Below, piece after piece: positions 1,413 to 31,757 of a stretch of DNA of 64,000 nucleotides. Origin of the DNA: Methanolobus profundi (GTDB lineage: Archaea > Halobacteriota > Methanosarcinia > Methanosarcinales > Methanosarcinaceae); NCBI RefSeq assembly GCF_900114835.1, contig NZ_FOUJ01000003.1:310001-374000 (forward strand), written 5' to 3'. The position numbers and the translations under genes are program-made. Below the pieces are notes generated by a model. That model worked only from the letters and a program-made list of their open reading frames with translations, had not been told where the DNA came from and did not search any database. The stretch's first letter is position 1, and each line of letters begins with the position of its first letter.

Positions 1413-1535
1413 GTGGGGGCGTATTGTTGCTAAGCCCAAGTTTCTCACATCCTATGTGTTCAAGCAGGATGGGCAGGTCGGCATTCGAAGCGGTTGCCTT
1501 GAAAGACCGACCTGCCTCGGTGAGACCACCCCCAC
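1413..1535. ncRNA. Structured RNA candidate: three-way junction with kissing loops
   Basis: This intergenic stretch folds on paper into a compact RNA. The closing stem is GTGGGGG (1413-1419) with CCCCCAC (1529-1535). The second stem is TCTCAC (1443-1448) with GTGAGA (1520-1525). It encloses two hairpins: ATCCT (1449-1453) with AGGAT (1466-1470), and a perfect 10-bp stem GGCAGGTCGG (1472-1481) with CCGACCTGCC (1507-1516). The two hairpin loops carry TTCAAG (1459-1464) and CTTGAA (1498-1503), which can form a kissing interaction. I do not recognise the family. If transcribed on the minus strand (TATA-like TTATATTT near 1565) it would lie in the leader of the cytochrome gene; on the plus strand it would stand alone or lead into the 35-codon ORF at 1726. 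Confidence 0.6.
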
Positions 1536-31691: not shown

Positions 31692-31757
31692 CTGTGTGCC
31701 AATGATGAGAGAACACATCTGATACGTGATGAACCCTATGAGTTCTGAGGCACACAG
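31692..31757 (+). ncRNA. C/D box sRNA (2'-O-methylation guide)
   Basis: All four boxes are present in order: C box ATGATGA (31702-31708), D' box CTGA (31719-31722), C' box GTGATGA (31726-31732), D box CTGA (31745-31748). The ends are closed by a perfect 9-bp stem, CTGTGTGCC (31692-31700) and GGCACACAG (31749-31757). Guide regions are about 10 nt (31709-31718) before D' and 12 nt (31733-31744) before D. Such RNAs, with L7Ae, Nop5 and fibrillarin, direct ribose methylation of rRNA or tRNA. Targets were not identified. It may be transcribed with pyrF upstream. Confidence 0.8.

Follow-up and report, generated by a model that had tools for sequence, protein, structure and literature searches.

A predicted structured RNA with a three-way junction between two genes of Methanolobus profundi

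Is the structured element that lies next to a c-type cytochrome gene in Methanolobus profundi a leader of that gene, or an RNA gene in its own right? In the window (the whole 64,000-nucleotide stretch of DNA that was analyzed), the element sits between two genes, on the minus strand from about 1547 to 1400, and a first-pass annotation had read it as an RNA with a three-way junction that matches no known family. The latter point held, as Rfam gave no match either at the gathering score or at E values up to 10; C/D box RNA, SRP RNA, RNase P RNA and the other Rfam families were rejected as identities of the element, for which none reached its gathering score. The sole Rfam match in the window is a C/D box sR41 at 31698-31750 on the plus strand, with a score of 54.1 (gathering score 54). 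In the open-licence papers on Methanolobus and on archaeal sRNAs, no description of this RNA was found, and, as judged by Rfam and this literature, the family is new although its kind, the archaeal intergenic small RNA, is known.

Predicted structure and its covariation

The four stems that had been read from the single sequence (1413-1419 with 1529-1535, 1443-1448 with 1520-1525, 1449-1454 with 1465-1470, and 1472-1481 with 1507-1516) are present and covary in 13 homologues. The minus strand folds to -58.3 kcal/mol, compared with -41.1 +/- 4.1 in dinucleotide shuffles (z -4.2; 0/200), and the plus-strand fold is weaker (z -2.8). The elements are as follows, all on the minus strand and in the order of that strand.

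1567-1580, minus: putative promoter, BRE-like CAAAGATC and then the TATA box TTATAT (1567-1572)
1400-1547, minus: predicted RNA gene, ~145 nt, with its 5' end placed 19-22 nt past the TATA box and its 3' end in TTTT at 1401-1404
1526-1535, minus: 5' strand of P1, GUGGGGGUGG, partner 1413-1421; 94.5% of cells paired, 4 of 10 pairs changed on both sides
1520-1525, minus: 5' strand of the junction-closing helix P1', UCUCAC, partner 1443-1448
1507-1516, minus: 5' strand of P2, GGCAGGUCGG; 9 of the 12 model pairs of P2 changed on both sides
1472-1481, minus: 3' strand of P2, CCGACCUGCC, partner 1507-1516
1465-1470, minus: 5' strand of P3, AUCCUG, partner 1449-1454; 3 of 6 pairs changed on both sides
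1455-1464, minus: terminal loop of P3, CUUGAACACA, ~YYRAAYAMA; near-invariant unpaired letters in the alignment
1449-1454, minus: 3' strand of P3, UAGGAU, partner 1465-1470
1443-1448, minus: 3' strand of P1', GUGAGA, partner 1520-1525
1423-1442, minus: unpaired junction strand from P1' to P1, core ~AACARCAU (here AGCAACAAU); near-invariant unpaired letters
1413-1422, minus: 3' strand of P1, holding a U-G wobble (1528/1420) in this genome

The architecture shown by the sequence comparison is a predicted basal helix P1 (~10 bp) stacked on P1', which opens into two hairpins, P2 (variable and covarying) and P3 (with a conserved loop); on its 3' side the junction carries an unpaired strand of ~19 nt.

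An alignment of homologues with a check for compensatory changes, which the first-pass annotation had called for, bears the three-way junction out strongly. In the model alignment of 13 sequences, 91.8% of the cells are standard pairs, double-sided changes that keep the pairing occur in 21 of the 38 base pairs (9.7 on average after shuffling), and covariation scores 0.371 versus 0.192 in shuffles and 0.06-0.13 with the partners slid by 1-3 columns. Because this alignment had been fitted to the model, the result from a plain MAFFT alignment of ten sequences also matters (13 double-changed pairs versus 7.6; score 0.303 versus 0.156). Under a tree-aware null that keeps the column rates, 13 of the 38 pairs had p<0.05 (~2 expected) and the whole set was shifted (p 1e-8); in a test of all column pairs, 13 sequences being few, almost no structural pair was significant singly. 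The clearest single case is the copy from a second genus (G033), in which UCUCACC/GGUGAGA of P1' is swapped for ACCGACG/CGUCGGU. The sequence of P1 is almost invariant, so a few diverged copies supply much of its support. The comparison supports every predicted stem (basal, junction and both hairpins), and since the stems covary in the 13 homologues they lie far beyond chance.

The first reading had added a tertiary contact between the two hairpin loops, on a plan resembling that of purine riboswitches. The two complementary 6-mers (TTCAAG and CTTGAA) do occur at 1459-1464 and 1498-1503, but a 6-bp loop complementarity in the window was matched by 88 of 1000 shuffles (p 0.09), and complementarity of six loop bases in the same register was seen only in the window and its closest relative (there with one G-U); the copy of G060 has a 6-bp loop match, but in a different register. 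As no consistent P2/P3 loop-loop pairing was found across the 13 homologues, the kissing loops were rejected as chance-level in the window and not conserved. The likeness to purine riboswitches, which likewise have a three-way junction with two hairpins, goes no further: unlike them, the Methanolobus RNA has no conserved loop-loop contact, no Rfam match and a predicted promoter of its own, and unlike leaders of purine-related genes it has no fixed downstream gene, none of those seen being purine-related.

In copies of the bombayensis type (L014, L017, L019 and L024), GGUGGUCU is present both in P1 and in the 3' side of P2, so that P1 could serve as a partial alternative partner for the 5' side of P2. 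This alternative (AGACCACC of P2 with GGUGGUCU of P1) is specific to the clade and does not occur in the window copy.

In most copies CCCCCACA stands at the foot of P1, and an ACA directly after a basal helix might suggest a guide RNA of the H/ACA type. We regard this as very improbable: between P1 and P1' there is no unpaired 5' guide arm and hence no two-sided pseudouridylation pocket, no kink-turn was recognized by eye, an Rfam H/ACA match is absent even at E up to 10, and the ACA is not kept, the corresponding letters being CCCCCGCUAA in G048, CCCCCAUAA in G054 and CCCCCACUCC in G053.

Strand, promoter and neighboring genes

Read on the minus strand, the 13 homologues contain 35 G-U versus 14 A-C wobble-type cells (one constant G-U column left out), and these 35 G-U cells would become mismatches in the plus reading, which argues for minus as the RNA strand. 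The window itself has one such pair in P1 (1528/1420), which would be a C-A mismatch on plus. All 13 homologues have a T/A-rich TATA hexamer at a near-constant distance from P1 (about -31 to -39; in G054 as the variant ATAATATAT); no plus-strand promoter was found at a consistent place in them. Downstream of the RNA, most of the 13 copies have an oligo-T within ~10 bases. BRE/TATA promoters lie 19-22 nt ahead of the transcript start in Methanolobus psychrophilus (PMC5378194), and this distance, applied to the TATA box, gives the predicted start at P0; we infer transcription of the RNA and both its ends from such signals. The covariance model spans 1402-1547 end to end (E 5.4e-42; the window sequence is a seed member). 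Homologues range from 129 to 147 nt and differ by non-multiples of three, so the RNA is not coding.

The first-pass annotation placed the element on the minus strand 76 nt before a c-type cytochrome gene, and both points are borne out, the strand by the G-U bias and the TATA box. The gene (711-1337, minus; Pfam Cytochrom_C, E 5.5e-07) encodes a membrane-anchored single-haem c-type cytochrome with Met/Gly/Tyr-rich repeats; it adjoins the gene of a PLDc_N membrane protein (357-656, plus), close to rubrerythrin. The RNA might then act in cis as a leader of the downstream gene (a riboswitch or a redox or metal sensor) whose oligo-U would serve as a regulated terminator. Most carriers do have a same-strand gene 75-80 nt downstream, and in four this gene is redox-related: it encodes cytochrome c in three (the window, G057 and G050) and rubrerythrin in G054. 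The downstream gene varies by species, however, encoding an 88-aa membrane protein in six genomes and a YggS-like protein in G033, and two carriers have no adjacent same-strand gene, G053 having a convergent kinase gene and G048 an apparent opposite-strand tRNA gene (read from letters only). Moreover, both the 88-aa gene (just ahead of its start) and the YggS-like gene of the second genus have a TATA-like box of their own, and orthologous cytochrome and 88-aa genes persist in G042 and G063, which lack the RNA. A dedicated leader does not fit such differing neighborhoods, and that the RNA regulates the cytochrome gene in cis, as first proposed, now seems improbable also in view of the conserved TATA box of the RNA itself.

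A rubrerythrin gene lies within ~7 kb of the RNA in 11 of the 13 copies, mostly on the same strand, which we read as shared gene order. In one genome without the RNA (G064; locus L080, about 1100-1560), a cytochrome c gene stands directly ahead of the 88-aa gene, which joins both contexts of the carriers.

Distribution and inheritance

First, 112 genomes of the family were searched at the DNA level, and the region turned up in further members of the genus. The covariance model was then built from ten homologues, which match it by construction; the copies of G033 (the other genus, E 7e-20), G060 and G050 were not in the first model. The carriers amount to 12 of the 27 Methanolobus genomes and one genome of a second Methanosarcinaceae genus (E 2e-14 to 2e-46), with one copy per genome, and no further carrier was found among the other genomes of the second genus. 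Among named genomes, a scan for the pattern picked out Methanolobus vulcani PL 12/M and M. bombayensis DSM 7082, together with two MAGs of Methanolobus and one of Methanosarcinaceae; its remaining matches were rejected for their poor fit to the model. Elsewhere in the order or class no convincing homologue was found (the searches, of more than 40 genomes, were strictly filtered and may miss diverged copies), and the 5' pattern was not found in viral contigs. Two loci of the first DNA search (L012, L013) and the weak model matches L061-L065, L068, L164 and L165 were rejected as chance (E 0.04-0.64 per genome); most of these weak matches, once aligned, were poor in pairs.

On an rpoB tree (which leaves out G048 and G047 and places G053 by few columns, the stretch extracted from that genome having been off target), the carrier pattern takes three label changes and is compatible with one gain and two losses, and the RNA was probably inherited vertically within one Methanolobus clade, with about two losses. 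In G042 and G063 the RNA is cleanly missing from the corresponding intergenic regions; overall, clean loss took place at least twice. The copy of G050 (L026, 1501-1646), a genome that is sister to three without the RNA in the rpoB tree, has a weakened P1 (ACATAGGAATTG...) and a fold of -22 kcal/mol versus -48 to -67 in the others; it looks like a decaying copy. The RNA is accessory, being carried by one Methanolobus clade and lost several times.

The consensus carries a 10-bp near-perfect terminal inverted repeat, as an inverted-repeat DNA element or the remnant of a MITE would. That such an element, and not an RNA gene, accounts for the locus is hardly credible, given a single copy in a stable position, covarying internal helices, the one-strand G-U bias and the promoter.

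Possible function and relatives among archaeal sRNAs

What was found very probably represents a structured, free-standing RNA read from the minus strand. For the whole, the explanation that we favor, if by a modest measure, is a single-copy, free-standing sRNA of ~145 nt with its own TATA promoter and an oligo-U end that would act in trans. It would be transcribed from this promoter on the minus strand and end in the oligo-U stretch; the covarying helices would form a scaffold that displays the conserved P3 loop and junction strand with its core, and through these single-stranded elements the RNA might base-pair with its mRNA targets or contact a protein. A promoter and terminator of its own and the lack of a protein, by which a trans-acting sRNA is recognized in archaea, are found here at the level of sequence.

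As to how it would act, regulation in trans by base-pairing has a little under an even chance, by likeness to the sRNAs of Methanosarcina mazei (PMC5867862). Against the gene starts of six neighboring families (rubrerythrin, PLDc_N, 88-aa, AIM24, mechanosensitive channel and cytochrome), neither the P3 loop nor the junction strand showed more complementarity than expected by chance (mean z near 0). A mainly protein-binding role ranks next and is distinctly less probable. The RNA might in that case be a structural or scaffolding component of an RNP, in which the sequence of P1 and the junction strand would serve to bind protein and not to pair with mRNAs; we consider this rather doubtful, too. 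In its favor, the letters of P1 are near-invariant beyond the needs of pairing, conservation extends to the P3 loop and the junction strand, and there is a single copy per genome, but unlike core RNPs the RNA is limited to one clade and repeatedly lost, and no gene of a partner protein tracks it in the neighborhood. Less likely still, it may represent a new lineage-specific class of structured RNA that is more than an antisense regulator, e.g., ligand-sensing or protein-sequestering, in which the near-invariant P1, the P3 loop and the 3' junction strand would form a specific binding site.

A trans-acting sRNA would have relatives in kind. In M. mazei, sRNA154, sRNA162 and sRNA41 are trans-acting intergenic sRNAs that act on mRNAs (PMC5867862), and sRNA162 is treated in a further paper as well (PMC3510493). 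These belong to the same archaeal family and are likewise free-standing and intergenic; the likeness is one of kind, drawn from their descriptions, whereas, within the family, the model finds homologues of the present RNA in Methanolobus and a single further genus only. Closer by taxonomy, dRNA-seq of M. psychrophilus recovered 195 sRNAs; these are from the same genus and, like this RNA, intergenic with BRE/TATA promoters, but the nine conserved cold-induced sRNAs of that species occur several per genome, in contrast to the single copy here (PMC5378194).

The Methanolobus RNA offers a clear model of a three-way junction and occurs in cultured species. To our knowledge, a comparative secondary structure is available for few archaeal regulatory RNAs. 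Its intact, eroded and lost copies form a natural series, so that its role may be tested by comparison of species and by deletion.
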